Assembly: GCA_035527835.1 (NCBI GenBank)
Contig: DATKZS010000223.1
Coordinates: forward strand, 1-30,326
Source: DATKZS01 sp035527835 [NCBI: bacterium]
GTDB lineage: Bacteria; RBG-13-61-14
Direction of reading: 5' to 3'
Length of the DNA: 30,326 nt
Part shown: in pieces, positions 5,095-28,505 of the stretch
Position numbering within the stretch: the stretch's first letter is position 1
How the letters are laid out: each line of letters starts with the position of its first letter
Notes under the pieces: generated by a model
The model's input: only the letters and a program-made list of their open reading frames with translations
Databases searched by the model: none
Told to the model about the DNA's origin: nothing
Program-made: the position numbers and the translations under genes

Positions 5095-5120
5095 TCCCAC
5101 TCCTTTCGGCATCGGTTGAC

Positions 5121-8169: not shown

Positions 8170-8254
8170 GGTCGTCAGCTTGTTCAATCGGAGGATCGGA
8201 TCAGCGTTCATTTTCGATCATAAAACCGCCGCCAGCCCGCGCCGCCCGTCCGTT

Positions 8255-9244: not shown

Positions 9245-9278
9245 TTTACTTTCTCCCTTCATCCTTCACCGTGCGGTT

Positions 9279-15578: not shown

Positions 15579-15599
15579 CAGATGGTTTCCGTCTCCGGG

Positions 15600-17648
15600 T
15601 CACCGTGCCTTGATGGAGAACACCGTGTATTCCGCGGCGGTGAAAATTTTCGACTGCGGCACGATGCGGAGCGTGATCTTGTCCTTGCCCCGGGTCGCGG
15701 CGGGATCGAGGATGATGTCGTCCTCCGCGAAGATCTTCCATTTGTTGTTGCCGGTGTTGAACCAGGTGGCGGCGGGCCGGCCGTCCACCTCGACCGCCGC
15801 TTTCTGATCGTGCACGGACTGATCCAGGACGCGGCGGAGCATGACCGCGTCGGCGTCCGGGTCAATTCGGGCCGTGAACTCATAAGGCGCTTCATGCTCG
15901 GCCACGCTAAAGCCCACCCTGTCCGGCGAGTCAGGGGGCGGTTCCCGGCGATTGCCTCCGATGAACGTCCAGTAGAGCATCCACCAGATAGGTGGTACCC
16001 ACCACGGTCTCTTGATGGTCCCGATGTCCTGGCCGTTGAATTCGCCCTCAAAAAATCCATCACGTTTGCCCATCTTGACGGGACCCGGCCCGGCGAAGCC
16101 GTGCGCGGAGAGGTCTTCCTGATCGGCCATGTCCAGATAATCCGTCTGAAAAAGACTGGGCGCCGGCAGATGATAATAGAAGACCAGGCTGCGGTAGTGG
16201 CCGGGGACTTCGTTGAAACCGCCGTGCTGGATGGAGAAGCGCGCTTCGCTCCTAAAGGGGACGAACTCGGTGGGGTGGAAGCGGTACATGGTGATGTCGG
16301 AGAGAAGATTTCTATCCAGATAGGTCGTCAGGCGGAAGGTCGGCGCGCCGTGGATGGGGCAGGCAAAGGCCCGATCCAAAAAGTACCAGGAGCCGTTAAA
16401 GAACGTTTCGGTGGCGTCGCCGATGATGGCGGGCGAGCGGCTGCCGTCAACGTAGATGCGCTCGTCTCCTTCCAGGAAGTTCTCGGGGGTTTCCTCGACC
16501 GCGAGCACGCATCCGGCGATCTTGCCGCGGCCCATTACCTGCAGCATCAGATAGTCGCGGCCGGGGGTGAGGTCGTGCGACTCGCGGAACTGGGTGCGCA
16601 GGTATCCAGCGGAGGAGCCCAGGCCGGGGGTCGCCTGGTCGTCCGATTCGATTCTCACCCGGGCGATGGTCGTTTCTTCTTCATTTCTGTTGGTAATGGC
16701 AATGCGCGCGCGTTTCGAAAAAGGCATGGGCAACCGCAGGAAGAAGAGTCCCTCCCGGTCCTGACCGACGATTACGCCTTTCATGTCCGCGTTCTTATCA
16801 ATCCTTCGCTTTCGCTTCGGATAGTCGGGGAAACGGTTCTCAATGGCAAAGAGCAGCGAGAGCGGACATTCGAGCGAAGGCTGTTCGTCGCTGTCCCACC
16901 AGGCCTTGAGCCAGAGTTTGCGGAGGACCGAATCCTTTTGCGGGACGGACATCCGGATGCATTTCACGGTCCCGGCCCGGTCGGAACGGAAGACATCGTG
17001 AGTTTCGCCCGGCTTGATATTCAGATTGTTCAGTTCATGAACGGCAGCCCCCGCGGGCTTCCAGGCCGTTTCCGGAAGAAATTGCCGTGGGGCGTCGCCC
17101 AAATCCCGGCCCTCGGTCCAGGCCGGCACTTTCGTCCCGGCCGGGTAGCAGTGGTACCAGTAATGCAGCCCGAACGACCCGGTCTTGCCGCCGTCCACCG
17201 TGACCTTGAGATGGTCCTGGAACGGCATGGGGACATAGGACAGGGTCGTGCCGGTTGATTCCTCCGCGGTCAAGGCCAGCGGATAGACATGGGGCGGCTT
17301 GCCGACGGATTCCTTCAAGGGCGTGCTGATCCGGGGAGAACTCTCGCGGTCGAAATAGTAGTTGACCTTGCCCAGCCGCTTGAGCTGGCGTCGCTCGACG
17401 AACCCGGGGTGGAGCATTTGATGGTTCTTCCAGAAGGCCGCGAAGTACTTGATGCAGGCCGGCCCGACCGCGTCGAGCAGGACCGTGGTCCGTTCGCCCT
17501 CGAGCCGGATGAACTCGGCCTTGTTGGTGAAGCCGTTGTCGTTCCCGCCCTTTTTGTCATGCGCCGAGATGTTGCGGCAGATGACCAGGTCGTGGAGCAC
17601 GGGGAACTGCTCCATGAAGTCGAAGGAGGAGAGGATGTCATGGTCCAT
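15600..17648 (-). CDS. Large DUF2961/GH172-like protein without signal peptide
   Basis: A 682-residue paralogue of the downstream lipoprotein, but it starts directly at the conserved domain (FDFMEQFPVLHDLVICRN) with no signal peptide, so it is probably cytoplasmic. Shared marks are CRNISAHDKKGGNDNG, GQDREGLFFLRLPMPF, LEGDERIYVDG, ATETFFNGSWYF at about residue 411, MYRFH, and IQHGGFNEV. As in its partner, the Asp of the canonical GTEDYF is Thr while the Glu is kept. The pair suggests the same bond is cut outside and inside the cell, or that one copy has changed specificity. ATG 17648 is preceded only by a weak AAGGAC. The gap upstream contains an inverted tandem repeat. A long antisense open frame over this gene is a by-product of base composition. 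Confidence 0.78.
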   Translation of the reverse strand: MDHDILSSFDFMEQFPVLHDLVICRNISAHDKKGGNDNGFTNKAEFIRLEGERTTVLLDAVGPACIKYFAAFWKNHQMLHPGFVERRQLKRLGKVNYYFDRESSPRISTPLKESVGKPPHVYPLALTAEESTGTTLSYVPMPFQDHLKVTVDGGKTGSFGLHYWYHCYPAGTKVPAWTEGRDLGDAPRQFLPETAWKPAGAAVHELNNLNIKPGETHDVFRSDRAGTVKCIRMSVPQKDSVLRKLWLKAWWDSDEQPSLECPLSLLFAIENRFPDYPKRKRRIDKNADMKGVIVGQDREGLFFLRLPMPFSKRARIAITNRNEEETTIARVRIESDDQATPGLGSSAGYLRTQFRESHDLTPGRDYLMLQVMGRGKIAGCVLAVEETPENFLEGDERIYVDGSRSPAIIGDATETFFNGSWYFLDRAFACPIHGAPTFRLTTYLDRNLLSDITMYRFHPTEFVPFRSEARFSIQHGGFNEVPGHYRSLVFYYHLPAPSLFQTDYLDMADQEDLSAHGFAGPGPVKMGKRDGFFEGEFNGQDIGTIKRPWWVPPIWWMLYWTFIGGNRREPPPDSPDRVGFSVAEHEAPYEFTARIDPDADAVMLRRVLDQSVHDQKAAVEVDGRPAATWFNTGNNKWKIFAEDDIILDPAATRGKDKITLRIVPQSKIFTAAEYTVFSIKAR

Positions 17649-17697
17649 GGCTGTTGTCCTTATTGACAGGTCCGTAAATGGTAAAAAATTCTTTCTC

Positions 17698-17788
17698 GCC
17701 GCAGATGAACGCAGATGAACGCAGATTGATCCGGAAAGAGATTTTATTTATCTGCGTTCATCTGCGTTCATCTGCGTTCATCTGCGGC
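17698..17788. repeat. Inverted tandem 10-mer repeat (GCAGATGAAC)
   Basis: The left arm has GCAGATGAAC repeated two and a half times (17701-17726). The right arm has the complement ATCTGCGTTC three times plus a partial unit (17750-17788). An AT-rich spacer separates them, so the transcript could fold into a long hairpin. It sits between two GH172 genes of the leftward set. No spacers of the CRISPR type and no coding potential are seen. Confidence 0.85.
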
Positions 17789-17829
17789 AAAATTCTTCCT
17801 TCCCCTTCGTTGACGGAAGCCCGGATGGA

Positions 17830-18930
17830 TTACCCGGTCTGCTTGTAATAGAACGCCAGGCTCTCCATTTTGCAGTCCACGTTGTCGAACTCGCCGTGGG
17901 TCATGGTCATGCGGATGCGGGAGTTCCACGGATACGGGTCGGCCTCGTGGAAGCGGTACTGGCTCACCACCCCGCTCCACATCGAACGCACCGGGCAGCC
18001 GTGGTAGAGCGCCGCGAACGGGCCGCTGATGTAGTACCAGCCCGACAGAAAATAGTCCTCCACCCCGGTGCACTCGATGGATTGCGGGCCCTGCGGCGAG
18101 CCGAGCGGTTTGGCGATCATGGCCGGGCCCTGGTCCCCGACCTCATCGTCAACGTAAACCTTCAGGTTCCCCTCCAGGTAGGGAAAGGCCAGGAACGGCA
18201 GCTTGATGCGCGACTTCAGCGGATGGTTGGGATAAAAAGCGAGGGTCATCCCGGCGAAATGGCCCGGCCCCGCGTTCTCCTCCAGGACCAGGTGCGGGTC
18301 ATTGGGAATCATGGATTCGCTGATGTCCCTGGATCCACGGAAGTCGCGCTCGTGGTACTGCGCGTGCAGACAGCCGGCGTCCGGGGGAAGCTCCGGGGCC
18401 TGCATATACGAGATGGCGCCGTAAAAGAGCTGGATGTCCCGCTTCGAGTGGCGGTTCTCCATGACCACGCGGCAGGAGCGCTTGAAGGGCATGGGCAGGT
18501 AGCAGTAGTAGCCGCCGGAGGTCATGCCGACGAACTTGCTCGAGAAGCTCACGTACCTGGTGGTCCCGTTGCCGAAGAAGTGGCCGATGGGCGCGGACAC
18601 CGCGGGCGTTTTTTCGCCGTCATAGTAGATGTTGATCCACAGGTATTTGTGCGCGGGCACGCGCTTCCTGCGCACGGCCTCGATCATGCGTCCGGCCACG
18701 GTAATCCAGATCGCGGTCACGCACCCTGGTCCCTCCATCAGCGGGAACTCCCAGGAGCTTTGCGCCGGGATCGGCTTGAAGTCCCAGTGGCCCACGTCCT
18801 TGAAGTATTCGTGGGACCCGATGCGCATTTGCTCGTGAGTGTGGGTCGTGACCTGCCGGGCCTTGAGTCCAGGGCGGACCGCTGCCATGGCGGCCACCGG
18901 GCCGAGCCGGCTGGAAATGGTGTCGTTCAT
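17830..18930 (-). CDS. DUF2961/GH172 family glycosidase
   Basis: A 366-residue protein of ordinary length for DUF2961/GH172. It has GPGCVTAIWITVAG and IYYDGEKTPAVSAPIGHFFG near the N-terminal half, LPMPFKRSCRVVMEN, LEGNLKVYVDDE, the canonical active-site motif TGVEDYFLSGWYY (about residues 286-298), YRFHEADP, and MTHGEFDNV. Characterised relatives cleave alpha-fructofuranosides or alpha-D-arabinofuranosides through a double jelly-roll fold, usually as trimers. There is no signal peptide, so it is probably cytoplasmic. ATG 18930 is chosen because GAGGAG lies 7 nt upstream; the frame extends further only through a palindromic repeat. It follows the corrinoid protein gene and heads a run of three GH172-type genes, which links furanoside cleavage to the corrinoid system by position. 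Confidence 0.87.
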   Translation of the reverse strand: MNDTISSRLGPVAAMAAVRPGLKARQVTTHTHEQMRIGSHEYFKDVGHWDFKPIPAQSSWEFPLMEGPGCVTAIWITVAGRMIEAVRRKRVPAHKYLWINIYYDGEKTPAVSAPIGHFFGNGTTRYVSFSSKFVGMTSGGYYCYLPMPFKRSCRVVMENRHSKRDIQLFYGAISYMQAPELPPDAGCLHAQYHERDFRGSRDISESMIPNDPHLVLEENAGPGHFAGMTLAFYPNHPLKSRIKLPFLAFPYLEGNLKVYVDDEVGDQGPAMIAKPLGSPQGPQSIECTGVEDYFLSGWYYISGPFAALYHGCPVRSMWSGVVSQYRFHEADPYPWNSRIRMTMTHGEFDNVDCKMESLAFYYKQTG

Positions 18931-18965
18931 GGTTCGCTCCTCATCAGGCGATGATGGAAATATGA

Positions 18966-19023
18966 GGTGGGGGTTACACTCTTGTCCCCCATCCGCTTGG
19001 CCGACAGGAGTGTCGGCCCCACC
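18966..19023. repeat. 58-bp cruciform repeat, intergenic copy
   Basis: This is the reverse-oriented sister of the repeat at 761-819. Perfect outer arms GGTGGGG (18966-18972) and CCCCACC (19017-19023) enclose the hairpin CCGACA-GGAG-TGTCGG and a decayed form of the second hairpin (ACACTCTTGTCCCC). It lies between the stop of the corrinoid gene and the ribosome site of the GH172 gene, where a hairpin could influence mRNA processing. Confidence 0.85.
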
Positions 19024-19028
19024 ATGTC

Positions 19029-19661
19029 TCATGCCTCGCCGGTAACCACGAGGCGGGCGAAGTTGCGGCCCGCGGTGGGATCGGGACCGTAAAAGTCCGC
19101 GCCCACCTCGTCGCAGAACTCCTGGCGGAGGGGAGCGCCGCCGATCATGATCTTGACCTGGCCGCGGATGCCCGCTTCCTCGATGGCCTTGACCGTGTCC
19201 TTCATCGCCAGCATGGTGGTGGTGAGCAGCGCGGAGAGGCCCACCACCTGCGGCTTGTGCTCCTTGATGGCGTCCACGAACTTGGCCGGCGCCACGTCGG
19301 TGCCCAGGTCAATGACCTCGAAGCCCGCGCCCTCCAGCGCCATCACCACCAGGTTCTTGCCGATGTCGTGCAGGTCGCCCTTGACCGTGCCGATGATTAC
19401 CTTGCCGATGGGCTCGATCCCGGACGCGACCAGGCGGGGCTTCAGCACGGAAAGCCCCTGCTGCATGGCCCGCGCCGCCACCAGCATCTCCGGCACGAAG
19501 TACTCGCCCTTCGAGAACAGGTCTCCCACCTCGTCCATGGCCGGGATCATGGCCTCCTGCAACATGGTCCCCGGATCGGCCCCGGCGTCGAGGAGCTTTT
19601 TCACCTGCTCCACCGTCTCCTTGGCCCTGCCTTTCAAAATCATCTCCTTCAATCTTTCCAT
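19029..19661 (-). CDS. Corrinoid (B12-binding) methyl-carrier protein
   Basis: A 210-residue protein of the MtaC/MtbC family. The N-terminal helical cap domain (about residues 1-85, with AMIPAMDEVGDLFSKGEYFVPEMLVAARAM split over two helices) resembles the methionine-synthase cap. The Rossmann-like B12 domain follows, with the lower-ligand motif GDLHDIGKN (about 94-102), the Ser/Leu stretch GLSALLTTT, and IGGAPL. Such proteins accept a methyl group from a substrate on cobalt and hand it to a second methyltransferase. It is the only corrinoid protein in the window, while four URO-D-fold proteins are encoded upstream. The ribosome site AAGGAG lies 7 nt before ATG 19661. No reductive activase of the RamA type is visible here, so it would have to be encoded elsewhere. 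Confidence 0.92.
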   Translation of the reverse strand: MERLKEMILKGRAKETVEQVKKLLDAGADPGTMLQEAMIPAMDEVGDLFSKGEYFVPEMLVAARAMQQGLSVLKPRLVASGIEPIGKVIIGTVKGDLHDIGKNLVVMALEGAGFEVIDLGTDVAPAKFVDAIKEHKPQVVGLSALLTTTMLAMKDTVKAIEEAGIRGQVKIMIGGAPLRQEFCDEVGADFYGPDPTAGRNFARLVVTGEA

Positions 19662-19710
19662 AACTGCTCTCCTTTTTTTATTCGCCCGCTATCCGCGCGC
19701 GGGCCTGGAT

Positions 19711-20865
19711 TCAGTAGTCGCGGCCGAAATGTTCGCGGTTCCACTTATGGCCCTCGTCAATCATGGCCAGGTAATTGCCGAGCGGCACGTAGTTGGCCAC
19801 GGAATTGCCCGTTCCCAGGACATAGCGGCCTTTGGTGGCGCAGAGATCCAGGACCTGGCGGGTGCGGGCCCGCACTTCATCCTCGGAGCCTTTGGCCATC
19901 AGGTTCATGTCCACTCCGCCGATGATGCCGATGCGGTCGCCCCATTTGGCGTGGACCTCTTCCACCGGCATGATCTTGTCCTCGTAGCTGTGCTTGGCGT
20001 CCACCCCCATGGCGATGATGTCGTCCATGACCGCGTACATGTTGCCGCAGGTATGGAGCACGAACACGCCGCCCGCTTTATGGGTGATGTCCACGATCTG
20101 CCTGGTGCGGGGCAGGAACTTCTCGCGGAGCACGCGGGGCGAGACAAAGGTCCCGGAGTAGAAGCCGAGGTCGTCGCCCATGAAGATGCCGCCGACGTTG
20201 GGCTCGGTCATGATGTCTTCCACCACCGCGGCGATCAGGGACGTGACCTTTTCAATCACGGCGTCCACCAGGTCCGGCTGGTCGGCCAGGGCGTAGGAAA
20301 AGGGGACCAGGCCCATGAGCCAGGTGGTCCACTCGAACACTCCGCCCGGGATCACCATCACCTTCATGCCGTCCGGCACGCGCTTGGCCATGGTCCGCGA
20401 CATGGCGTTGACGGCCTTGATGTCGCGAGGCCAGCGGAAGCGCTTGAAGTCGTCCCAGCTCATGATGGGGCCGCGGTTGTCGTTGAGCCATCCCCTCTTG
20501 CCGTCCTTGACCTCGGAGGAGGTGTTGTCGGTGACCTGGAAAGCGAAGCCCTTGAACGGGATGATGCTGTACGACCAGCAATAGTCCCATCCGGCCAGGC
20601 AGCAGAACCTGATGGTCTGTCCCACGAACTTATAGCCCCACCACAGGTCCTTCATGGTGATCTTCTGGTCCGGGTCCTCCGCCAGCGAGATGTAATCCAG
20701 CACCGGCTCCTGGAGCAGATGGCTCACCGTCTCGAAGTCGGCGAAGATGTCGCCCACCGTCACCGGCCCCGGCTCATTGCCGAGCAGCGATCGGCGGAAC
20801 CGCTCGAAGTCCGGCTGGCGGTCCCCCGGCGCCTTCATCTTCAACAACGCTCTCCAGATGTCCAT
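19711..20865 (-). CDS. URO-D-fold (MtaA/MtbA-like) methyltransferase A
   Basis: A 384-residue protein of the uroporphyrinogen-decarboxylase superfamily, whose MtaA/MtbA branch moves methyl groups between corrinoid proteins and acceptors. The zinc motif HTCG is present at about residues 269-272. The third zinc ligand, a Cys in MtaA, is not found at the expected place, which reads LGTGNSVANYVP. It lies directly before the corrinoid gene, so the two are very probably partners. ATG 20865 overlaps the stop of the regulator gene (TGATG), with GGAG six bases upstream; GTG 20868 is an alternative. Whether it demethylates a substrate or transfers the methyl group onward cannot be told from sequence. 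It is the most diverged of the four family members here. Confidence 0.85.
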   Translation of the reverse strand: MDIWRALLKMKAPGDRQPDFERFRRSLLGNEPGPVTVGDIFADFETVSHLLQEPVLDYISLAEDPDQKITMKDLWWGYKFVGQTIRFCCLAGWDYCWSYSIIPFKGFAFQVTDNTSSEVKDGKRGWLNDNRGPIMSWDDFKRFRWPRDIKAVNAMSRTMAKRVPDGMKVMVIPGGVFEWTTWLMGLVPFSYALADQPDLVDAVIEKVTSLIAAVVEDIMTEPNVGGIFMGDDLGFYSGTFVSPRVLREKFLPRTRQIVDITHKAGGVFVLHTCGNMYAVMDDIIAMGVDAKHSYEDKIMPVEEVHAKWGDRIGIIGGVDMNLMAKGSEDEVRARTRQVLDLCATKGRYVLGTGNSVANYVPLGNYLAMIDEGHKWNREHFGRDY

Positions 20866-21644
20866 CACTTGCTCCGGTTCCGGCCCATGTTCTGGACGAT
20901 GCGCACGAACATGTTTCTGACGTCCGGCTTGGAGGACTCGACCAGGGTCTTGATCCTCTCTACGTCATGGGCGCACACGGCCTGGATCAGGCCGCGGTTG
21001 ATCTCATGATATTTTTGCAGAGGGAAGGGCGGCTCCTTGACGATCCCGAGGGCCAGGAGCTTGCGGGAGAGCCTCACCTCCGAGTTATAGGTCATCTGCA
21101 GGATGAGGTCTCCGCCGATGCGGAGCAGCTCGCGGTAGAGTTGGAACTCGTTCTCGTAGAATTCCGTGATCGGGGTCTGGTCGGTCTGGCGTTCGAGGAT
21201 GGCCATCAGCAACGGCTCATCGGCGGCGGTGGCGTTTTTGGAGGCCGCGATCATGATCTGCTGGCATTCCCAGATCCCGTTCTCGGTCATGGTTTCGAGG
21301 AGCTGGAGGCTGATCACGGCCTCGGGGCTCTCGAAGAAGAGGTCGGGCAGGACCTCGATGCCCACGCTGGTCCGGAAGTCCTTGACCGCGTTGCTGCGTC
21401 CCTGCACGATCTCGATCCATCCCTCCTGCGCGAGCAGGAGCAGGGCCTTGCGCAGGGTGCTCCGCGAGATGCCGAAGCGCTCGGCCAGCTCGCGCTCCGG
21501 CGGCAGCTTGTCACCCGGCTGGTACACTCCCGTGAAGATTTCCTTCCGGAGCACCGCGATCACCTGGTCGGTGAGCGATACCCTGTGGACCTCGCTCCCC
21601 ACCGCGCCCGTTGTTTGCTCACATCCGCTTTTTTCCTTGAGCAT
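20865..21644 (-). CDS. GntR-family (FadR-type) transcriptional regulator
   Basis: A 259-residue regulator. The N-terminal winged helix-turn-helix (about residues 22-90) contains YQPGDKLPPERELAERFGIS, RSTLRKALLLLAQEGWIEIVQGR, the classic GntR pattern. The helical C-terminal part fits the FadR/FCD type, which usually binds small acids or sugar acids. It is encoded inside the gene set, so it may control it; the 31-bp palindrome at 28475-28505 is the obvious candidate site, though binding is not shown. The ribosome site AAGGAG lies before ATG 21644 and is derived from the tail of a decayed upstream gene. It overlaps the following methyltransferase gene, so the two are made together. Confidence 0.88.
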   Translation of the reverse strand: MLKEKSGCEQTTGAVGSEVHRVSLTDQVIAVLRKEIFTGVYQPGDKLPPERELAERFGISRSTLRKALLLLAQEGWIEIVQGRSNAVKDFRTSVGIEVLPDLFFESPEAVISLQLLETMTENGIWECQQIMIAASKNATAADEPLLMAILERQTDQTPITEFYENEFQLYRELLRIGGDLILQMTYNSEVRLSRKLLALGIVKEPPFPLQKYHEINRGLIQAVCAHDVERIKTLVESSKPDVRNMFVRIVQNMGRNRSK

Positions 21645-21647
21645 GGT

Positions 21648-21767
21648 TTACTCCTTTTCCAGGTTCGTCCAGCGGACGATGCCCCGGCCCTTTGTTCACC
21701 TCCAGCGTGAGCTTTGCTCCCCGCCCTTCCACGCGCCCCAGGATCCTGTATGGACGTCTCACGCCTT
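21648..21767 (-). pseudogene. Remnant of a third CrtC/AttH-like gene (3' end)
   Basis: Between the CrtC/AttH-like gene and the regulator, one frame reads YRILGRVEGRGAKLTLEV, resembling HYQLRAEGGGATLTAEV of the intact paralogues. A second frame then reads GRGIVRWTNLEKE-stop, matching their conserved ends GRGVVRWMALEEK and GRGIGRWMHLEEK. About 50 residues between the two parts are missing and the frame is shifted. It is therefore a deleted leftover. Its last codons form the ribosome site of the regulator gene. Confidence 0.7.
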
Positions 21768-22805
21768 TTATTTCTCTTCCAACGCCATCCACCGCACCAC
21801 GCCGCGGCCGGAGTACGTTTCCCGCCGGCCTTCCCGCGTGACCGCGATGGAATAATCTCCCAGCCAGTCGTAGACCCATCCGTTCTTGGTCATGGTCTTG
21901 GCGATGGTCCGCACCACCGCGGGCAGGTTGCTGAACAGGTCCTCCTTGAGCAGCAATTCGCCCGCGCGCGCCTCCGCCGTCAGCTGTACTCCCCCGGCCT
22001 CGGCCGCCAGCGCGTAATGTTTCGGATACCGGAAGGCGACCTTTTGCTCCTCCACCCAGTCGTCCCACTTGAGTTCGTAAGCGGTGGAGGTGAACGCGCC
22101 CGCCCGGTCCATGAACGTGAGCCGCTGCACCAGGGTCTCGCCGAACTGCGGCTGCGCGTTGTACTCGGTGAGCATGAGCGCGTGGTCCTCGCCCAGGAAC
22201 CAGAAGAACCTCCACCGCGGCGGCGTGTGCATGATCGAGAGCACCTGGTTGTCGAGGCTCATGTTGCCCAGGCCGTCAAGGCGGTACTCCTTGCCTTCCA
22301 CCACCGCCTCCACGTGGACCCGGGCCCAGGGGATGGGGAGCTTGTAACAGGCGAAGCTCTTGCCGTCCGGATACCTGACCATGCCGTCGCCCCAGGCGCA
22401 GCCCGCCGCCAGCGGGTCGTAGGTGATCCGGGCCTTGACCCTGCCGAGCTCCAGCTCCAGGTGATACTTGTCACCCTCGAGCCACATCCGGTTCGGGCCG
22501 ATGGCGGCCCCGAACCCCTCGTCTTGCCACGTCACTTTCTTGTTCTTATAGGTCTCCTGCTCCCGCATGATTTTCGCCCCCGGCCGGGCCAGGACAAAGA
22601 GCACGGACGCCTCGTTGTTGTTGAACCCGATGAGCACGGTCATCATCGTCCCGTCCGGGAAACTCAGGTGGTGGTAGTAATCCTCGGACCAGGAGGCGTT
22701 CTTTATCTGCTCGTGGCGGAAAAGCGCGGGGTCCACGCCGCCCTTGAAAGGCCCGGGGCCGTTGACCTGGGTCGGAAAAATGCTCCATTCGCCGGCGCTG
22801 GTCAT
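21768..22805 (-). CDS. CrtC/AttH-like beta-barrel protein, copy 1
   Basis: A 345-residue beta-rich protein without signal peptide. Motifs shared with the second copy are VNGPxxF, YYHHLSFPDGTMMTV, GPNRMWLEGDKY, LPIPWARVHVEAV, NMSLDNQV, WFLGED and a GRGVVRWMALEEK end. The overall pattern recalls the CrtC/AttH/Svf1 lipocalin-like superfamily, in which CrtC hydrates carotenoids; I hold this assignment only loosely, and the true role is unknown. ATG 22805 overlaps the stop of the preceding URO-D gene (ATGA) and has AGGAG upstream, so the two are translationally coupled. The same pairing is repeated next door, which implies the two proteins act on one substrate or pathway. This copy is presumably cytoplasmic. 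Confidence 0.6.
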   Translation of the reverse strand: MTSAGEWSIFPTQVNGPGPFKGGVDPALFRHEQIKNASWSEDYYHHLSFPDGTMMTVLIGFNNNEASVLFVLARPGAKIMREQETYKNKKVTWQDEGFGAAIGPNRMWLEGDKYHLELELGRVKARITYDPLAAGCAWGDGMVRYPDGKSFACYKLPIPWARVHVEAVVEGKEYRLDGLGNMSLDNQVLSIMHTPPRWRFFWFLGEDHALMLTEYNAQPQFGETLVQRLTFMDRAGAFTSTAYELKWDDWVEEQKVAFRYPKHYALAAEAGGVQLTAEARAGELLLKEDLFSNLPAVVRTIAKTMTKNGWVYDWLGDYSIAVTREGRRETYSGRGVVRWMALEEK

Positions 22806-23926
22806 GCGTGCTCCTGGTTCCATTGCCTGGTCTCATCCACCATGGCCAGGTAGTTTTCCATCTTGCAGAAGTTGGTGACCGAGTTTCCCGAGCCCATGCA
22901 GAACCCTCCATCGGGCGCGCAGGTTTCCAGGATCTGCCGGGCCCTTTTCCGCACCTCGGCCTCGGTGCCCCGCGCCATCAGGTCAACGTCGAGCCCGCCG
23001 ATGATGGAAATGCGGCCGCCGTATTTAAAGTACGTTTCCTCGACCGGCTCGATGTTGTCCTGGAAGCTGTGCTTGGCGTCTATGCCCACGACCTCGATCA
23101 GGTCCTCCATCAGGGGGTCTATCTGGCCGCAGGCGTGGAGCAGGAAGGGCTTGCCGTGCTTATGGCAGGCTTGGGCGATGCGCTGGTGGCGGGGGATGAC
23201 CCACTCGCGCAGGAGCTTGGGCGAGATCATGGTCTGGGTGTTGAAGGCCATGTCGTCGGCGTAAAAGATGGCGCCGGTCGCGGGATGGGCCGCGGCCTTG
23301 TCCACCAGATTCACGGTCAGCACCGTGAGCCGCTCCAGGATGTCCTGGACCAGGTCCGGCTGGTCCACCGTGGCCACGGCCATGCCCTCGAAACCCATCA
23401 ATGCCCGCAGGTTCTCGAAAATGCCGACGATCAGGGCCATGACCTTGGACCCCGGCGGCAGCCGAGGCGCGGCGTATTGGATGGGCAGAATGTTGACCGT
23501 GTTGACGTGAGGCCAGGGGTAGGCATCGAACTCCTCGCGGTTATTGATGAGGCCGTCATGCTCCCCCTGCCACGCGCGCATTTTGCCGCCTTGTTGAGGG
23601 TTGGCCTGGATTTGCATGGGAGTAGTGGGGATAGACACGATCGGGAGCATGGTCACGTAGTCGTAGTTGGTGGCCTCGGAAAAGGCAATGGACAGGTCCA
23701 TTAATTGAATCCCGAGCTTGGCTATCTCGATGGTTAGCCCGCCGACCACGTTCCAGACCTGGGGCAGCTTTTCCAGGGGGAAATTATTGCCGCTGAGCTC
23801 GATCATATGCTCGGGGTCCACCTCGAATTCAAGCAGCGGCACCGGGCCTTGCTTGGTCTCACGCATCAGGACCTGGCGCATGTGCTCAAAGTCCGGACGG
23901 TCTTGAAACGGCGTCCTGAATGTCAT
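22802..23926 (-). CDS. URO-D-fold methyltransferase B
   Basis: A 374-residue URO-D superfamily protein. It begins MTFRTPFQDRPDFEHMRQ and has HACGQ at about residues 260-264 (His-X-Cys zinc pair), NIEPVEE, IIGGLDVDLMARGT, and a C-terminal GSGNSVTNFCKMENYLAM. The usual third zinc Cys of MtaA/MtbA is replaced by a GSGNS stretch, though a Cys follows seven residues later. It is closely related to the gene at 27122-28243. AGGAGG lies directly upstream of ATG 23926, the chosen start. The stop overlaps the start of a CrtC/AttH-like gene. By family it would handle methyl transfer with a corrinoid protein; the substrate is unknown. Confidence 0.82.
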   Translation of the reverse strand: MTFRTPFQDRPDFEHMRQVLMRETKQGPVPLLEFEVDPEHMIELSGNNFPLEKLPQVWNVVGGLTIEIAKLGIQLMDLSIAFSEATNYDYVTMLPIVSIPTTPMQIQANPQQGGKMRAWQGEHDGLINNREEFDAYPWPHVNTVNILPIQYAAPRLPPGSKVMALIVGIFENLRALMGFEGMAVATVDQPDLVQDILERLTVLTVNLVDKAAAHPATGAIFYADDMAFNTQTMISPKLLREWVIPRHQRIAQACHKHGKPFLLHACGQIDPLMEDLIEVVGIDAKHSFQDNIEPVEETYFKYGGRISIIGGLDVDLMARGTEAEVRKRARQILETCAPDGGFCMGSGNSVTNFCKMENYLAMVDETRQWNQEHA

Positions 23927-23960
23927 GCCGACCCCTCCTTTTCCTTCGGGCCCATCCGGC

Positions 23961-25046
23961 CTACTTCTCTTCCAGGTGCATCCATCTTCCGATCCCCCGG
24001 CCCTGGTAGGTGGACGTTGTCCCGTCCCGGCTGTACTTGATCGTGTAATCGCACCAACGGTCGTCAACCCAGCCGTTTCTGAAAAAATGCTTGGCCATTT
24101 CCAGGCTCGGGGGCAGGTTGCTGTAAAGGTCCTCCCGGAGCAAGAGCTCGCTCACCCGGACCTCCGCCGTGAGCGTCGCTCCCCCACCCTCCGCCCGGAG
24201 CTGGTAATGGCGCGGAAAGCGGAACTTGATCTCCGGGACCTCTTCCCAGTAGTCCCACGAAAGCGGATAAGAAGTCGAAGCGAACATCCGGCCGCCCTGG
24301 TCCACGAACACCAGCCGCTGAATCAGCTTCCCGCCAAACTGCTCCGGCTCGTTGAAATCCGTGACCGCGAACATGTGGTCCTCGCCGAAAAACCAGAACA
24401 CCCGCCATTGCGTCTGCGCATAAGCCGGATTGCGCACCTGGTTGTCATGGTTCATGGTGCCGAAGCCCTTCAAGCTGTAGCTCTGGCCGTCGCACACCGC
24501 CTCCACCTTGGCCCGCGCCCACGGGATGGGCAGGGTATAGGTGCTGTAAACCTTGCCGTTCGGGTTCACCACCCTCCCATCACCGTAAGTATAGGGGGGC
24601 GACAAAATGTCGTATTTGATGTCCGCCTTCACCGTGTCCATCTCCAGGTGCATGAAATATTTATCGCCCTTGAGCCACAACCGGTTCGGGCCCATGGTCA
24701 TGCCAAAGCCGTCCGCGTCGAACTTGACCTCGCTGTTGTCCACGAACACCAGCTCCCGAAATGCCTTCATGCCGGGCCGGCCCAGCACGAACATGACGGT
24801 GGCCTGGGTAATGTCGAACCCCACCGACACCGTGACCATGGAGCCGTCGGGAAAATTCATGTGATGGTAGTAGGCCTCGTCCCAGAAAATCCCCTTGAGC
24901 TGCCGGTGCCGGAAAGCCGCGAGCGGGTCGGCCGCGGGCGACGCCACCGGACCGTTCACCTGGCCCTTGAAAACGACCCAGTCATCCTGGGCCGGCGCCG
25001 CCGCGGCCAGCGCCATTAACGTACCGATGATAACTATGTATTTCAC
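23961..25046 (-). CDS. CrtC/AttH-like beta-barrel protein, copy 2, exported
   Basis: A 361-residue paralogue of the protein at 21768-22805, with the added signal peptide MKYIVIIGTLMALAAAAPAQ. Conserved stretches are VNGPV, YYHHMNFPDGSMVTV, GPNRLWLKGDKY, LPIPWARAKVEAV, NHDNQV, WFFGED, LTAEVRVSELLL and GRGIGRWMHLEEK. The fold is probably a lipocalin-like double barrel; the function is not established. Because this copy is exported and the other is not, the pair may work on the same kind of ligand on both sides of the membrane, like the two large GH172 proteins (inference). The start codon is GTG 25046 with GGGAG six bases upstream, which gives the complete signal peptide. It follows the URO-D gene at 25078 after 31 bp. 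Confidence 0.62.
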   Translation of the reverse strand: MKYIVIIGTLMALAAAAPAQDDWVVFKGQVNGPVASPAADPLAAFRHRQLKGIFWDEAYYHHMNFPDGSMVTVSVGFDITQATVMFVLGRPGMKAFRELVFVDNSEVKFDADGFGMTMGPNRLWLKGDKYFMHLEMDTVKADIKYDILSPPYTYGDGRVVNPNGKVYSTYTLPIPWARAKVEAVCDGQSYSLKGFGTMNHDNQVRNPAYAQTQWRVFWFFGEDHMFAVTDFNEPEQFGGKLIQRLVFVDQGGRMFASTSYPLSWDYWEEVPEIKFRFPRHYQLRAEGGGATLTAEVRVSELLLREDLYSNLPPSLEMAKHFFRNGWVDDRWCDYTIKYSRDGTTSTYQGRGIGRWMHLEEK

Positions 25047-25077
25047 GGCAAGCTCCCGGTCCTCCGTCTCTTCTTCC

Positions 25078-26205
25078 CTAGGCCCGGTTCAGCGGAAACG
25101 TCCCGTGCTCCCGGACCACTTCGGTCACCGCCTGGAGCCTTTCCCAGGTGGTGTTTTTCGGCACCGCGTCGTTGGAACCCAGGGCCATGCGCCGGCCGTC
25201 GCCCATGTTCCGGAGCACCTCCCGCGTGTATTCCTTGAGGTCCGCGGGCTCTTTCGAGGCGAAGGCCGTGGCGTCAATCCCGCCCATGATGAATTTTTCC
25301 GGTCCCCACAGCCGGCGGGCGGTGGCCAGGTCGGGAAGGCTCCCGGTGGGCGGCGTGGCCACGTCCACCAAGCCGTCGAGGGCCAGGCTTCCGATGGCCT
25401 CTCCGAACTCGAACAGGTGGCCGCAGGCGTGACTAAGTAAAATCTTGCCGGCCGGGTGGAGGATTTCGTAATACTCCCGGTACCAGCGCGGCGCGTATTT
25501 TTCCCAGATTTTGGGCGAGACCAGGGTTGACGACAGGTTTTCGTACTCGATGATCACGGGCGCCTTGCCCTCGGCGCAGGCCCGGCAGATCCTTTTCACC
25601 ATCCCGTGCATGGCCTCGAACAGCTCCTCCATCGCCTCGGTGTGGTCGAAGTAGAGGTACCAGAAGGTATCAATATCCATCTCGCTGTTGAGGATGGTGA
25701 GCATGGGGGTGCCGGGAACGGAGATGGTTGAGATGCCGTCGTCGCCGATGCGCTTTTCGGCCAGGTCGAACATGTAGGGCATGGGCACGAATTCAGCCAC
25801 CTCGTACATCCAGGTGAGGATCTTGACGTCCTCGATGGTCCGGACGCGGCGGCGGGTGGTCCAGGGAATGTTGGGAGATTCGGGGTTATACTTGAATTGC
25901 TCGGTCAAAGTACCGAGCGGGGTCTCGTAATTAATCTCGGTCACTCCATCCACGGTCCGCTGCTTCTTGGTCCAGAGCATCTTCTTGCCGGGGATCGTGG
26001 AGGTGAGGTAATAAGGCAGGGTCCCGAGGTAGTTGACGATATGCCGGAGCATGGCGTCGGCCCCGATCCTCCGGAAGCCGTCCACCTGGTCCACCCCGCC
26101 CAGGAAATAGCCGTCAATGCAGGGCGACCACGGAATGCGGTCAACGTCCTCGCCGCGCAGCGCGGCCATGATCCTCTCCCGTCCGCTCATGGTTTCCGTT
26201 GACAT
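25078..26205 (-). CDS. URO-D-fold methyltransferase C
   Basis: A 375-residue URO-D superfamily protein of a different branch from its neighbours. It opens with SGRERIMAALRGEDVDRIPW, the usual start of the MtaA/MtbA-like and uroporphyrinogen-decarboxylase families. The zinc pair appears in SHACGH at about residues 257-262, followed by GGIDATAF and a C-terminal ALGSNDAVPKNTTWERL in place of a Cys-bearing GCG motif. The role is probably methyl transfer linked to the corrinoid protein, but true substrate and direction are unknown. ATG 26205 has GAGGAG seven bases upstream. The first codons overlap, in another frame, with a truncated URO-D start at 26141-26275. A CrtC/AttH-like gene follows, as in the neighbouring pair. 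Confidence 0.83.
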   Translation of the reverse strand: MSTETMSGRERIMAALRGEDVDRIPWSPCIDGYFLGGVDQVDGFRRIGADAMLRHIVNYLGTLPYYLTSTIPGKKMLWTKKQRTVDGVTEINYETPLGTLTEQFKYNPESPNIPWTTRRRVRTIEDVKILTWMYEVAEFVPMPYMFDLAEKRIGDDGISTISVPGTPMLTILNSEMDIDTFWYLYFDHTEAMEELFEAMHGMVKRICRACAEGKAPVIIEYENLSSTLVSPKIWEKYAPRWYREYYEILHPAGKILLSHACGHLFEFGEAIGSLALDGLVDVATPPTGSLPDLATARRLWGPEKFIMGGIDATAFASKEPADLKEYTREVLRNMGDGRRMALGSNDAVPKNTTWERLQAVTEVVREHGTFPLNRA

Positions 26206-26275
26206 TCAGTTCTCCTCGTTCCATCAGCATTGGGCCGAAATCGGTTTGCCGCTTGAACGGCGTCCCGATCTTCAT
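26141..26275 (-). pseudogene. Truncated 5' end of a URO-D-type gene
   Basis: A 44-codon frame starts with ATG 26275 behind GGGAGG. It reads MKIGTPFKRQTDFGPMLMER, strongly like the start of the URO-D protein at 28243 (MKIGKPFKQTHDFEHMRKVM) and that at 23926. After about 20 codons the likeness ends, and the frame runs out of phase into the next URO-D gene. It looks like the surviving head of a lost methyltransferase gene. It may still be translated as a short leader, since its ribosome site is intact. Confidence 0.7.
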
Positions 26276-26286
26276 GCCGCGCCTCC

Positions 26287-27042
26287 CTACAGATTCTTGA
26301 TCGCTTCCTGGGCCAGTCTCTTGTAGAGCCGGTTCTCGGGCACGGCCCCGGGAAGGGCATCATCGGGCTGGCTCACGCAGAACCGGTATTCCTTCCGCGC
26401 CTGGTCTTTCTTGCCGCCCAGTTGGTTGGCGGCGCCCAGGAAGAAGTGGTTCCTGAGGTAGCGCGGCTCGATCTTGATGGCGCGCTGATAGAGCCAGATC
26501 GCGTCATCGTTCGAGAAGTGGAAAAACCGGCCCAGCAGAGAGGGCAGCGAGTTGATCACCAGCGCCCAATAGCAATAGACCCCGCCGTACTCGTACCCGA
26601 CGTCGCTCTTGGACACCATGATGGTGGCCACCAGGGCCTCCTTGAACGCGAAGCCCGAGAAGACCCCCTTCATCAGGGTCTTGCCCGCCATGTTCCACAT
26701 CAGCCAGTAATTCGCACCCGGGTTGTCCTCGTCCCGCGCCAGCACTTCGTTGCACGCCTTGATCCCCTTTTCCATGAGCTCGATCACCCGGTCCTTGCCC
26801 ATCTCCGGGTCCTGCTCAAAGGCCCAGCAGGTCGCGTGGGCCAGCTTGACGCGGACCGCCGCGTCCGCCGGGTTCCGGGCCGCGTATTGCTCATAGAGCT
26901 GGATCGCGACCAACGTCTGCGCCTTGTTGTCCCGGCCGGCCCAGGCCGCGTCCGCCCGCGCCAGAAGATCTTCCGCCGCCTGGCCGGAAAAAGGCGCGAA
27001 CAGCAATGCGGCCAGCGCCCATGACACCGACGATTTATTCAT
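26287..27042 (-). CDS. Exported TatT-like TPR protein
   Basis: A 251-residue protein with a signal peptide (MNKSSVSWALAALLFAPFSG, cleavage near QAAED). The rest is helical with TPR-like repeats: YEQYAARNPADAAVRVKLAHA, split over two helices, an ACNEVLARDEDNPGANYWL repeat, and DDAIWLYQRAIKIEPRYLRN with FFLGAANQLGGKKDQARKEY. The GGVYCYWALVINSLPSLLG segment resembles TatT, the TPR component that accompanies some TRAP transporters in the periplasm. No TRAP transporter genes are present here, so it more likely serves as a binding or scaffolding protein for an unknown ligand. AAGGAGG lies six bases before ATG 27042. It is flanked by URO-D-type genes in the same direction. Confidence 0.7.
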   Translation of the reverse strand: MNKSSVSWALAALLFAPFSGQAAEDLLARADAAWAGRDNKAQTLVAIQLYEQYAARNPADAAVRVKLAHATCWAFEQDPEMGKDRVIELMEKGIKACNEVLARDEDNPGANYWLMWNMAGKTLMKGVFSGFAFKEALVATIMVSKSDVGYEYGGVYCYWALVINSLPSLLGRFFHFSNDDAIWLYQRAIKIEPRYLRNHFFLGAANQLGGKKDQARKEYRFCVSQPDDALPGAVPENRLYKRLAQEAIKNL

Positions 27043-27093
27043 TGCCGCCTCCTTGCACCCCGCCGATGACTCTCGGCCTTGGTCCGCTACTCT

Positions 27094-27117
27094 CCCCGGT
27101 CTCCGAGCCGGCCGGGG
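27094..27117 (-). other. Intercistronic GC-rich hairpin
   Basis: CCCCGG (27094-27099) and CCGGGG (27112-27117) can pair around a 12-nt loop, just after the stop of the first URO-D gene and before the TPR gene. No U-run follows on the minus strand, so a full intrinsic terminator is unlikely. It may tune the levels of downstream genes or stabilise mRNA ends. Confidence 0.35.
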
Positions 27118-27121
27118 CGCT

Positions 27122-28243
27122 TTAATGCTCCCCGTTCCATTTCCGGGTCTCGTCGAGCATGGCGAAATAGTTCTCGACCTTGCAGTAGTTGGTCACGGAA
27201 TTGCCTGAGCCCATGATGTAGCCGCCGCCGGGAGCGCAAACTTCAAGAATCCGTCGAGTCCTCTTCCGGACTTGCTCCACGGTGCCCCGCGCCAAGAGGT
27301 CCACGTCCACCCCGCCGATGATGCAGATGCGGTCGTGGTACTTTTTGTACACCTCCTCCACCGGCTCGATGTTGTCCTGGAAGGAGTGGCGGCCGTCTAT
27401 CCCCACCGTCTCGATCAGGTCCTCCATGATCGCGTCAATCTGGCCGCAGGAATGAAAGAGGAAGGGCTTGCCGTGGCGATGGACCGCCTCGGCCGAACGC
27501 CGGTAGCGGGGAATCAGGTTTTCCCGGATCCATCGCGGCGACATCATGGTCCCGTTGTTGAAGGCCAGGTCGTCGGCATAGATGAACGCGCCCACCCCCT
27601 TGTGGGCCGCGCATTTTTCCAGGGCGGCCAGCTCGATCTCGTGCAGCTTGTCAAGAATGTCGGTCACCAGGTCGGGCTCCTCGATGCTCTTCATCGCCAT
27701 CTGCTCGAACCCCAGCAGACAGCGCAGGTCCTCGAAAATCCCGATGCTGAAGGCGATGACCTTCATGGTCCGGGGAATGCGCCATTGGGTGAAACTGATG
27801 GGCGCCATGTTGACGGACCGGGGCGAGGGCCAGGGGAACCGCTCAAAGTCCTCCCGGTTGCGGATCAGTCCCTCATGCTCGTTCTGCCAGGCCCGGACCA
27901 GGTCCTCCTGCTTGGGGTTCTTGCGGAGGTGCTTGGCCGTCCGGGGCATGAGAATAATGGGGGTCATGATGACATAGTCGTATCCCATCCCTTTATAAAA
28001 GGCGATGGCCATGCGCATCAGCTTGAACCCGAACCACATCTGCGAGAGCGTCGGCCGGGGGCCGGGATCGGAAAACTCCGCCACCCGGTCCATGGGAAAA
28101 TTCCAGCCGAGAATCGCGCAGGCGATCTCCGCGTCCACCACGCCCTCGAAAATCGGCACCGGACCGGACGTGGTCTCGCGCATCATGACCTTCCTCATGT
28201 GCTCGAAATCATGAGTTTGCTTGAAAGGCTTTCCGATTTTCAT
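27122..28243 (-). CDS. URO-D-fold methyltransferase D, first gene of the leftward set
   Basis: A 373-residue URO-D superfamily protein, closest within the window to that at 22802-23926. It starts MKIGKPFKQTHDFEHMRK and has HSCGQ at about residues 262-266, SFQDNIEPVEEVYKKY, GGVDVDLLARGT, and GSGNSVTNYCKVENYFAM at the end. Thus the His-X-Cys zinc pair is kept and the canonical third Cys position is not. The function is probably corrinoid-linked methyl transfer (inference from family and from the corrinoid gene downstream). ATG 28243 is preceded by AAGGG about five bases upstream. Its leader of about 240 nt starts at a promoter near 28.5 kb and carries a 24-bp perfect inverted repeat. Confidence 0.83.
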   Translation of the reverse strand: MKIGKPFKQTHDFEHMRKVMMRETTSGPVPIFEGVVDAEIACAILGWNFPMDRVAEFSDPGPRPTLSQMWFGFKLMRMAIAFYKGMGYDYVIMTPIILMPRTAKHLRKNPKQEDLVRAWQNEHEGLIRNREDFERFPWPSPRSVNMAPISFTQWRIPRTMKVIAFSIGIFEDLRCLLGFEQMAMKSIEEPDLVTDILDKLHEIELAALEKCAAHKGVGAFIYADDLAFNNGTMMSPRWIRENLIPRYRRSAEAVHRHGKPFLFHSCGQIDAIMEDLIETVGIDGRHSFQDNIEPVEEVYKKYHDRICIIGGVDVDLLARGTVEQVRKRTRRILEVCAPGGGYIMGSGNSVTNYCKVENYFAMLDETRKWNGEH

Positions 28244-28318
28244 GGTCCCTTCTGAATATGGTCGCCGCTCCGATCTTTCGTGAACGCGGCTTTTTTCCCA
28301 TGTTCTGCTCAGAAAATA

Positions 28319-28405
28319 ATTTTTGACAGGATTAACAGGATGAACAGGATGAAAGAAAATAAGCATCTACTCGCTCCGGAACATCCTGTTAATCCTGTCA
28401 AAAAT
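28319..28405. repeat. 24-bp perfect inverted repeat with GACAGGAT/AACAGGAT units
   Basis: The arms at 28319-28342 and 28382-28405 are exact inverted copies; their core is GACAGGATTAACAGGATG. The left arm continues with another AACAGGATG unit. In the leader of the URO-D gene the RNA could fold into a long hairpin around a 39-nt spacer. I recall similar sequences as dispersed intergenic repeats in unrelated bacteria, but I cannot check that here. Confidence 0.85.
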
Positions 28406-28474
28406 CTTTTCATTATTTCCGGGCGCCGCCTCGCGGCATGAGGAGCTGTCAGTTATTGATGTCACCTTCCCTGC

Positions 28475-28505
28475 ATTGGTTTACTATGTGACTTAGTAAA
28501 CCAAT
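28475..28505. promoter_or_regulatory. 31-bp operator-like palindrome
   Basis: The perfect 12-bp arms ATTGGTTTACTA (28475-28486) and TAGTAAACCAAT (28494-28505) surround a 7-bp centre TGTGACT. The palindrome covers the -10 region of the leftward promoter, the usual place for a repressor site. The FadR-type regulator encoded at 20865-21644 is the natural candidate, by position only. On the galU side it lies some 400 bp upstream. Confidence 0.75.

Follow-up and report, generated by a model that had tools for sequence, protein, structure and literature searches.

A corrinoid and URO-D gene set in a run of GH172 glycoside hydrolase genes: possible corrinoid-dependent demethylation of methylated glycosides

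Gene Content of the Run

The 30,326-base contig DATKZS010000223.1 of assembly GCA_035527835.1 (DATKZS01 sp035527835), called the window below, carries one run of 21 minus-strand genes, from position 28243 down to 1847, in which four URO-D-fold proteins and a single corrinoid carrier are encoded together with GH172 glycoside hydrolases, and which is considered here as a candidate system for the corrinoid-dependent demethylation of methylated glycosides. The first half of the run, in order of transcription, consists of UroD4, a TPR protein, UroD3, CrtC2, UroD2, CrtC1, a GntR-family regulator, UroD1, the corrinoid carrier, GH172c, GH172b and GH172a; after GH172a come a nitronate monooxygenase (NMO)/FabK-like protein, a BadF kinase, a NagB-like protein, a GH4 enzyme, a flavoprotein, the transporters MFS2 and MFS1, a PIG-L protein and a weakly amylase-like protein. 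Most of the 20 intergenic gaps (17) are shorter than 100 bases, the larger ones being 123, 181 and 301 bases, and three overlaps between genes occur in the run, two of them inside 15600-28243. The Pfam scan covered 20 of the 21 run proteins and NCBIfam models were also used, MFS1 being identified by NCBIfam only.

An earlier note on this DNA had described URO-D, corrinoid, regulator and GH172 genes as one directional set within 15600-28243. Such a set is present, with four PF01208 proteins, one PF02607 plus PF02310 protein, a PF00392 regulator and PF11175 enzymes all on the minus strand. The range was drawn too narrowly, since there are three GH172 genes, of which GH172a (13419-15578) lies outside it, and the set extends past 15600 to 1847. 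Signal-like N-termini, read by eye from the translations, were found on CrtC2, the TPR protein, GH172a, the PIG-L protein and the amylase-like protein, and none was seen by eye on the URO-D proteins, the carrier, GH172b, GH172c, GH4 or BadF. An Rfam scan of the window gave no match at gathering scores.

URO-D Proteins and the Corrinoid Carrier

All four URO-D proteins matched PF01208 (E 1e-13 to 1e-24) and represent three lineages, UroD2 and UroD4 forming one clade (55% identical), with UroD1 (37%) and UroD3 (about 20-25%) standing apart. In a tree of 51 rows, UroD2 and UroD4 grouped in one clade with homologues from loci L001-L007 (support 100/100), the UroD1 clade (100/100) included L003, L005, L016, L017, L044 and L001, and UroD3 lay far off, its L001 orthologue being its sole companion. 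The UroD2 model was nearest to MtaA (4ay7; Z 32.5, 2.8 Å over 322 residues), the only URO-D-superfamily methyltransferase among the structural matches listed, and identity to MtaA in the structure alignments was 14-15%.

The zinc ligands of MtaA, H237, C239 and C316 (chain numbering plus 9), are partly retained. His267 and Cys269 (UroD2 residues counted from base 23935, so that the ATG is residue 4), equivalent to MtaA His237 and Cys239, occur in all 51 rows, that of UroD3 among them, and the equivalent of Cys316, position 351, is Asn in 48 of the 51, so that the idea of a full MtaA zinc site in these URO-D proteins is not upheld. NCBIfam SCMT and MtaA-CmuA models scored them at 26-66 bits, below cut-offs of 235-600. 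Because the third ligand is Asn and the SCMT scores fall far below cut-off, the proteins are described here as URO-D-fold and methyltransferase-like, without the full zinc site of MtaA. UroD3 moreover lacks the K/R-H-S motif and Cys339. The OdmB motif E-x14-E-x20-H matched 0 of 51 rows and was not used as a criterion. CdmB, a methyltransferase I (MTI) of the URO-D superfamily, is reported to require no zinc (PMC13222342).

A profile search of genome contigs with the UroD1/2/4 alignment was reduced to the best 80 of 173 relatives, which represent 78 distinct loci. A corrinoid gene was present in 8 of these 78, many of the contigs or flanks being short, and the expectation of such a gene in most URO-D loci is thereby not borne out. 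Among loci with UroD2/UroD4-like genes, defined by tree or score, a corrinoid gene was near in 8 of the 13 seen, namely the window, L001, L002 (weak and partial), L004, L006, L007, G046 and G081, and not near in L003, L005, L142, L008 and L009, the last two having a URO-D gene cut off by the contig end; L001 and L005 belong to the same genome, as do L002 and L009. The earlier note had staked its reading on the joint conservation of URO-D and corrinoid genes, and such conservation fails for the wide family, where flanks are often short, and holds for the UroD2/UroD4 group. The carrier translation itself contains DLHDIG, in keeping with the corrinoid motif D-x-H-x-x-G.

In the wider family, URO-D genes often stand in tandem with no carrier gene close by: 66 of the 69 loci L010-L078 had no relative of the corrinoid gene, and of 117 proteins encoded next to such URO-D genes, 15 were URO-D proteins themselves. 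These neighbours were taken from 67 loci, one gene to the left and one to the right, and the 25 families listed out of 128 included, besides the 15 URO-D proteins, four ROK, two B12-binding, two Gfo/Idh/MocA and two periplasmic-sugar-binding-type proteins. The count hints at sugar genes near wider-family URO-D genes and, having no background control, is not used as evidence. In addition, very large proteins (1,037-1,325 aa) adjoin UroD1-/UroD2-like genes at L003 (1629-9783) and L044 (4173-7286), the two of L003 matching no Pfam family.

GH172 and CrtC/AttH-like Proteins

The three GH172 proteins exceeded the PF11175 cut-off widely (173-177 bits versus 27, E about 1e-51). Glu291 has been reported as a catalytic glutamate of alphaFFase1 (PMC8605356); it aligns with a Glu in GH172c and GH172b, and Glu270 aligns with a Glu in GH172b. 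In an alignment of the window proteins, GH172a and GH172c also have Glu at both catalytic columns. The equivalent of Asp292 is kept in GH172c only and is Thr in GH172a and GH172b. Known members of GH172 act on alpha-D-fructofuranosides or alpha-D-arabinofuranosides (PMC8605356, PMC10115798), and the sugar cannot be named from the GH172 matches of the present proteins. GH172a and GH172b (13419-17648) form a tandem duplication, with 75% DNA identity over 1,176 bases and 85% over a 116-base stretch, and no Pfam model names the C-terminal region that the two have in common.

The CrtC2 model matched Fsa2/CghA, AttH, 25-phosphosteroid lyase and kievitone hydratase at Z 20-26, the next other row being at 9.0. 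The label CrtC/AttH-like given to this pair by the earlier note is thus upheld by predicted fold, with AttH (2ich) at Z 22; in the Pfam scan CrtC1 matched just Svf1_C, and CrtC2 had no match. A cluster in genome G004, which belongs to the phylum of the relative discussed below, has two CrtC-like genes together with GH172, PIG-L and GH39 and no URO-D gene (L101, G004:C508, 8664-19802), and for this reason the CrtC proteins may be components of the glycoside module.

Conservation in a Relative and a Recurring Operator

In the Deltaproteobacteria metagenome-assembled genome RBG_13_61_14 (G001), locus L001 and the adjoining L098 contain 19 of the 21 run genes, so that the directional set is also found in one locus of a relative. 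This locus encodes UroD4, UroD3, UroD2, TPR, a truncated UroD4, three CrtC, GntR, UroD1, the corrinoid carrier, GH172c/b/a, BadF, NagB, GH4, the flavoprotein, MFS2, the amylase-like protein (in two frames) and PIG-L; no match to NMO or MFS1 was detected in L001/L098. Between GntR and MFS2 the genes follow one another as in the window, NMO excepted, and tblastn identities of the window proteins in L001 were 52-87%. The 159-aa truncated UroD4 copy (L001, 12034-13622) and the extra CrtC copies suggest duplication and decay. A second cluster in the same genome, L005, has UroD4, GntR, CrtC (25%), UroD1, GH172c, a GH94 phosphorylase-like gene and GH172a. Both families are expanded in this 4.7-Mb genome, which has 20 URO-D frames (21 matching stretches, HemE included) and 8 GH172 frames (12 matching stretches). 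The comparison set for the phylum of G001 comprised three genomes only.

A 31-bp palindrome, ATTGGTTTACTA-7-TAGTAAACCAAT, lies upstream of UroD4 in the window and recurs upstream of UroD4 in degenerate form in L001, with two mismatches in each 11-base arm (2+2 of 22), and in L005, with one mismatch in the left arm and four in the right (1+4 of 22, the right arm being poor); it was absent from the other 14 loci scanned, allowing up to 7 mismatches of 22. Exact matches to the half-site TTGGTWTAMTAAG number two in the whole of G001, precisely at the heads of the L001 and L005 clusters. With up to one mismatch the total rises to six, and the reversed pattern used as a control gives five, which means that the four sites with one mismatch do not exceed the control. 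A GntR gene is present in all three clusters headed by the palindrome, and the GntR protein probably binds it. In the leader that separates UroD4 from the operator (28318-28406) there is also a long inverted repeat, formed by the core GACAGGATTAACAGGAT and its complement, which folds as one strong hairpin, and this core was not found in any other locus compared.

The recurring operator site ties URO-D and GH172 genes together, and because the locus is conserved and its operator recurs, the gene set appears to be more than chance. The conservation across genomes that had been proposed for examination is thereby borne out in G001, by the L001/L098 locus, by the second cluster and by the operator at all three cluster heads.

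Partner Genes and a Glycoside Context in Another Phylum

Genes for the remaining steps of a corrinoid system were also found in the relative. G001 encodes a stand-alone methyl-tetrahydrofolate (methyl-H4folate):corrinoid methyltransferase (methyltransferase II, MTII) at L130, scoring 323 bits against an NCBIfam cut-off of 259, as well as two RACo-type activases and an operon for CODH/ACS that includes RACo and AcsE genes. The activase and folate-linked acceptor genes whose presence in the genome had been suggested as a check are thus encoded by this relative. RACo (RACo_C_ter) was found in 8 of the 9 genomes searched, G036 being the exception, and full-length ACS beta (E <1e-60) in 5 of 9. At L006 and L007 the gene order is MTII, UroD2-like, corrinoid, and the MTII of L006 exceeds the NCBIfam cut-off for methyl-H4folate:corrinoid methyltransferases; at L044, UroD3-like, UroD1-like and Pterin_bind genes share one contig.

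Genomes G046 and G081, which come from the same phylum as G002 and from a different one than G001, both have corrinoid and UroD2-like genes divergent from a GH13-GH4 pair, with DUF1329 and GH3 genes in both. Their UroD2-like proteins are 53-55% identical to UroD2 and 36% to UroD1, the proteins common to the two genomes are 79-89% identical, and the core order is kept, with additional genes in between in G081. Within about 13 kb, G081 also has GH38, GH29, an IlvD/EDD dehydratase, Gfo/Idh/MocA, GH51, GH1, DUF1302 and a further URO-D gene. The GH4 of G046/G081 is only 27% identical to that of the window. Among 395 genomes of this phylum, GH172c orthologues occur in two at E <1e-100 and in four at 1e-20, and UroD1/2/4-like genes (E <=1e-90) in five, both GH172c carriers being among the five. 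This co-occurrence may be a single event, because the two genomes with GH172c appear to be related, L002 and L003 grouping as sisters.

Other Genes of the Run

The positions of all features are collected in Table 1. The MFS carriers, the FabK-like protein and the flavoprotein have family matches that indicate no substrate. The TPR protein had been called TatT-like, a label that finds no support, as it shows TPR similarity only and no TatT is among the matches listed. The regulator had been called FadR-type: it has a GntR helix-turn-helix (PF00392, 1.4e-21), and the narrower assignment is uncertain, the FCD domain scoring 21.6 bits versus a cut-off of 24.3 and the NCBIfam FadR model 61 versus 189.

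Table 1. Features of the gene run and its upstream region, in order of transcription.
Feature	Position	Strand	Basis
Possible promoter, TTGACA-17-TACTAA	28493..28521	-	Read by eye; weak -10; palindrome overlaps; absent from consensus-scan list
31-bp palindrome, likely GntR operator	28475..28505		Perfect 12-bp arms; upstream of UroD4
UroD4, URO-D-fold methyltransferase-like, UroD2/4 clade	27122..28243	-	PF01208; 80% to L001; tree
TPR protein, signal-like N-terminus	26287..27042	-	TPR matches only; 69% to L001
UroD3, divergent URO-D	25078..26205	-	PF01208; 87% to L001
CrtC2, two-lipocalin CrtC/AttH-fold protein, signal-like N-terminus	23961..25046	-	Model pLDDT 73, from four sequences
UroD2, URO-D-fold methyltransferase-like	22802..23926	-	PF01208; model pLDDT 94; MtaA 4ay7 Z 32.5
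CrtC1, CrtC2 paralogue (50%), no signal-like N-terminus	21768..22823	-	PF17187; alignment
GntR-family regulator	20865..21644	-	PF00392 1.4e-21; homologues in L001 and L005 clusters
UroD1, second URO-D lineage	19711..20868	-	PF01208; tree; 78-81% to L001/L005
Corrinoid carrier protein	19029..19661	-	PF02607 and PF02310 (B12-binding_2, B12-binding); D-L-H-D-I-G; 86% to L001
GH172c, no signal-like N-terminus	17830..18930	-	PF11175; Glu291 equivalent; Glu270 equivalent by alignment
GH172b, no signal-like N-terminus	15600..17648	-	PF11175; both catalytic Glu aligned
GH172a, lipoprotein-like N-terminus	13419..15578	-	PF11175; aligned to GH172b
Nitronate monooxygenase/FabK-like (NMO)	12412..13377	-	PF03060; TIGR03151 217 bits, below cut-off; between BadF and GH172a; no match in L098
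BadF-type sugar kinase	11425..12387	-	PF01869; present in L098
Glucosamine-6-P deaminase-like (NagB-like)	10577..11428	-	PF01182; TIGR00502 118 bits, below cut-off
GH4	9279..10574	-	Nearest solved relatives are 6-phospho-beta-glucosidases; 88% to L098
FAD-dependent oxidoreductase (flavoprotein)	8255..9262	-	Family scans; present in L098
MFS transporter 2	6826..8211	-	PF07690; present in L098
MFS transporter 1	5184..6524	-	Weak NCBIfam MFS matches; no match in L098
PIG-L/LmbE-type deacetylase, signal-like N-terminus	4294..5112	-	PF02585; present in L098
Glucoamylase-like protein, signal-like N-terminus	1847..4255	-	TIGR01577 65 bits, far below cut-off; no PDB match; in two frames in L098

Proposed Function and Alternative Explanations

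Methylated sugars are frequent in plant, algal and microbial glycans. The preferred reading of the locus is a corrinoid-dependent demethylation of a methylated glycoside, and the version in which the methyl group sits on the sugar part, our first choice, is given about an even chance. The gene content, the conserved locus, the recurring operator and the MTII, activase and ACS/CODH genes of the relative support it at the level of sequence. From these we infer methyl transfer, its substrate, export, the direction of flow, repression and a division of labour among the URO-D proteins as follows. The run would be an operon under GntR control that serves the breakdown of a methylated glycoside with furanose and perhaps aminosugar units. 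GH172a, the PIG-L deacetylase and the glucoamylase-like protein, if exported as their N-termini suggest, would trim this compound outside the cell. The trimmed products would be imported by the MFS carriers, the remaining linkages might be opened in the cytosol by GH172b, GH172c and GH4, and the BadF kinase and NagB-like protein could pass the sugars onward. The corrinoid system would cleave methyl ethers in the cytosol, the URO-D proteins transferring the substrate methyl group to Co(I) of the single carrier, with UroD2 and UroD4 acting as MTI and UroD1 and UroD3 possibly serving other positions or steps. An MTII encoded elsewhere would then transfer the carrier methyl group to H4folate, from which it would enter the Wood-Ljungdahl branch. 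The carrier might be maintained in its reduced state by a RACo-type activase that is likewise encoded elsewhere.

Several observations weigh against this reading. Neither an MTII nor a reductive activase was found among the 21 run proteins with Pfam and NCBIfam, nor was a Ram/RACE gene, the three flanking genes of the window lying outside the scan. The match of UroD2 to MtaA is nearly equalled by a true UROD (Z 31.5 versus 32.5), and part of the zinc site of MtaA is missing. GH172 and CrtC genes lie near URO-D genes in only 2 of the 78 loci, both in one genome. In that genome the arrangement of the TPR, UroD2 and CrtC genes at the upstream end, and of the final two genes, departs from that of the window, and the second cluster, L005 (20.9 kb), has no corrinoid gene. 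The GH172c orthologue of G002 lies 184 kb from its URO-D genes. UroD2-/UroD1-like genes elsewhere have a PFL-like enzyme (L006), HpaB (L009) or an AtuA-like gene (L003) as neighbours. None of the four strongest URO-D homologues inspected in G004 and G005 (L142, L144, L145, L146) has a relative of the corrinoid, GH172, CrtC or GntR genes nearby, L142 being the one with a UroD2/4-like gene. The CrtC-like fold, as modelled, is that of hydratases, lyases and cyclases of hydrophobic substrates, and the CrtC pair would therefore fit a lipid or aromatic aglycone.

One alternative is a methyl ether on the aglycone, in which case the operon would degrade methoxylated aromatic or terpenoid glycosides, the glycoside hydrolases freeing the aglycone, the URO-D proteins demethylating it like enzymes of the MtvB/OdmB type, and the CrtC/AttH-like proteins hydrating, dehydrating or binding it. 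The CrtC2 fold shared with kievitone hydratase, 25-phosphosteroid lyase and Fsa2/CghA speaks for such a role, as do the 6-phospho-beta-glucosidases nearest to GH4, the DUF1302/DUF1329 genes near the UroD2-like/corrinoid pair in G081, the AtuA-like and HpaB genes adjoining relatives, and the methoxylated aromatics or haloalkanes used by the URO-D-superfamily MTI that are named in the available part of PMC13222342. However, no aromatic-ring gene was recognised with Pfam and NCBIfam among the 21 run genes (the FabK-like protein could act on an acyl chain), the CrtC pair accompanies GH172 and PIG-L without URO-D in G004 and may be of the glycoside part, and the G081 and G046 loci look glycan-directed; we consider the aglycone an unlikely, though by no means negligible, position for the methyl group. 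What the earlier note had suggested, a corrinoid/URO-D set linked to furanosidases for sugar demethylation, is accordingly backed by the set itself, the operator, the relative and the pairing elsewhere, and not as to the methyl group being on the sugar itself.

The glycan and methyl modules might also be unrelated and merely adjacent, given that GH172, PIG-L and CrtC occur without URO-D in G004, and that in L004, L006 and L007 no glycoside hydrolase was recognised among the scanned neighbours of the UroD2-like and corrinoid genes. This is improbable in the light of the joint locus in the relative, the second cluster, in which both stand behind the recurring operator, and the UroD2-like and corrinoid genes accompanied by glycoside hydrolase genes in G046 and G081. 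Quite improbable, too, is a URO-D set related to type 1 mlp clusters, acting on methyl-sulfur or methyl-selenium substrates with the glycoside hydrolases as incidental neighbours. Those clusters likewise have several URO-D genes and one corrinoid gene without an H4folate methyltransferase, but those described carry a Ram/RACE gene and their proteins are about 30% identical to SCMTs (PMC10418091), whereas the present run has no activase among its 21 genes, only 14-15% identity to MtaA, SCMT scores of 26-66 bits against 235-600, and Asn as third zinc ligand. Finally, not all URO-D proteins need be methyltransferases: UroD3, which has neither the K/R-H-S motif nor Cys339 and is so divergent from the others, or UroD1, might catalyse a different reaction on sugar or carrier. 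With His267 and Cys269 in every row, UroD3 included, and UroD3 87% conserved in the relative, we regard this as highly improbable.

Extended beyond this locus, the demethylation of methylated glycosides would become a non-oxidative, corrinoid-dependent demethylation of O-methylated glycans in anaerobes, in which URO-D lineages specific to methyl positions charge one carrier inside glycan operons and the methyl groups pass to H4folate and acetyl-CoA, in at least two phyla, as an anaerobic counterpart of P450 sugar demethylation; this generalization is tentative and put somewhat below an even chance. If it were true, a corrinoid route would explain the recycling of methyl groups from sugars in anoxic sediments, give a function to part of the large, mostly unassigned URO-D group, and join glycan degradation to one-carbon metabolism. 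The locus suggests that some oxygen-free microbes may use B12 instead of oxygen to demethylate compounds that contain sugars.

Comparison with Known Systems

The component parts are of known kinds, and their combination was not found in the open-licence PMC literature, where titles and abstract openings gave no report of corrinoid-dependent sugar demethylation and, among the papers listed, none that joins DUF2961 with such themes. The corrinoid O-demethylases and dehalogenases of acetogens, MtvB, OdmB, VdmB and CdmBCA, are alike in having a URO-D-fold MTI and a small B12 carrier (PMC13222342); the likeness in MTII and RACo-type activase rests on the genome of the relative and not on the window. 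They differ from the present run, in which four URO-D proteins of three lineages accompany one carrier, no MTII or activase is encoded, and glycoside hydrolases stand at the centre. The type 1 mlp clusters (PMC10418091) share the several URO-D genes, the one corrinoid gene and the lack of an H4folate methyltransferase gene, and here the run has no activase gene, its URO-D proteins are far from the SCMT models and its context is one of glycoside hydrolases.

The DUF2961 domain and the catalytic glutamate pair are common to the present GH172 enzymes, alphaFFase1 and the exo-alpha-D-arabinofuranosidases (PMC8605356, PMC10115798), from which GH172a and GH172b differ in the Thr at the Asp292 position, the extra C-terminal region and the linkage to methyl-transfer genes. 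The predicted two-lipocalin fold is the same as in CrtC, AttH, kievitone hydratase and 25-phosphosteroid lyase (Z 20-26), but at 10-13% identity. The sole enzymatic removal of sugar methyl groups found in the open-licence PMC literature is that of marine bacteria, in which a P450 monooxygenase demethylates 6-O-methyl-galactose and forms formaldehyde (PMC10033563). Both routes would remove sugar methyl groups in the course of glycan use; no P450 was recognised here, and a corrinoid route is proposed in its place.

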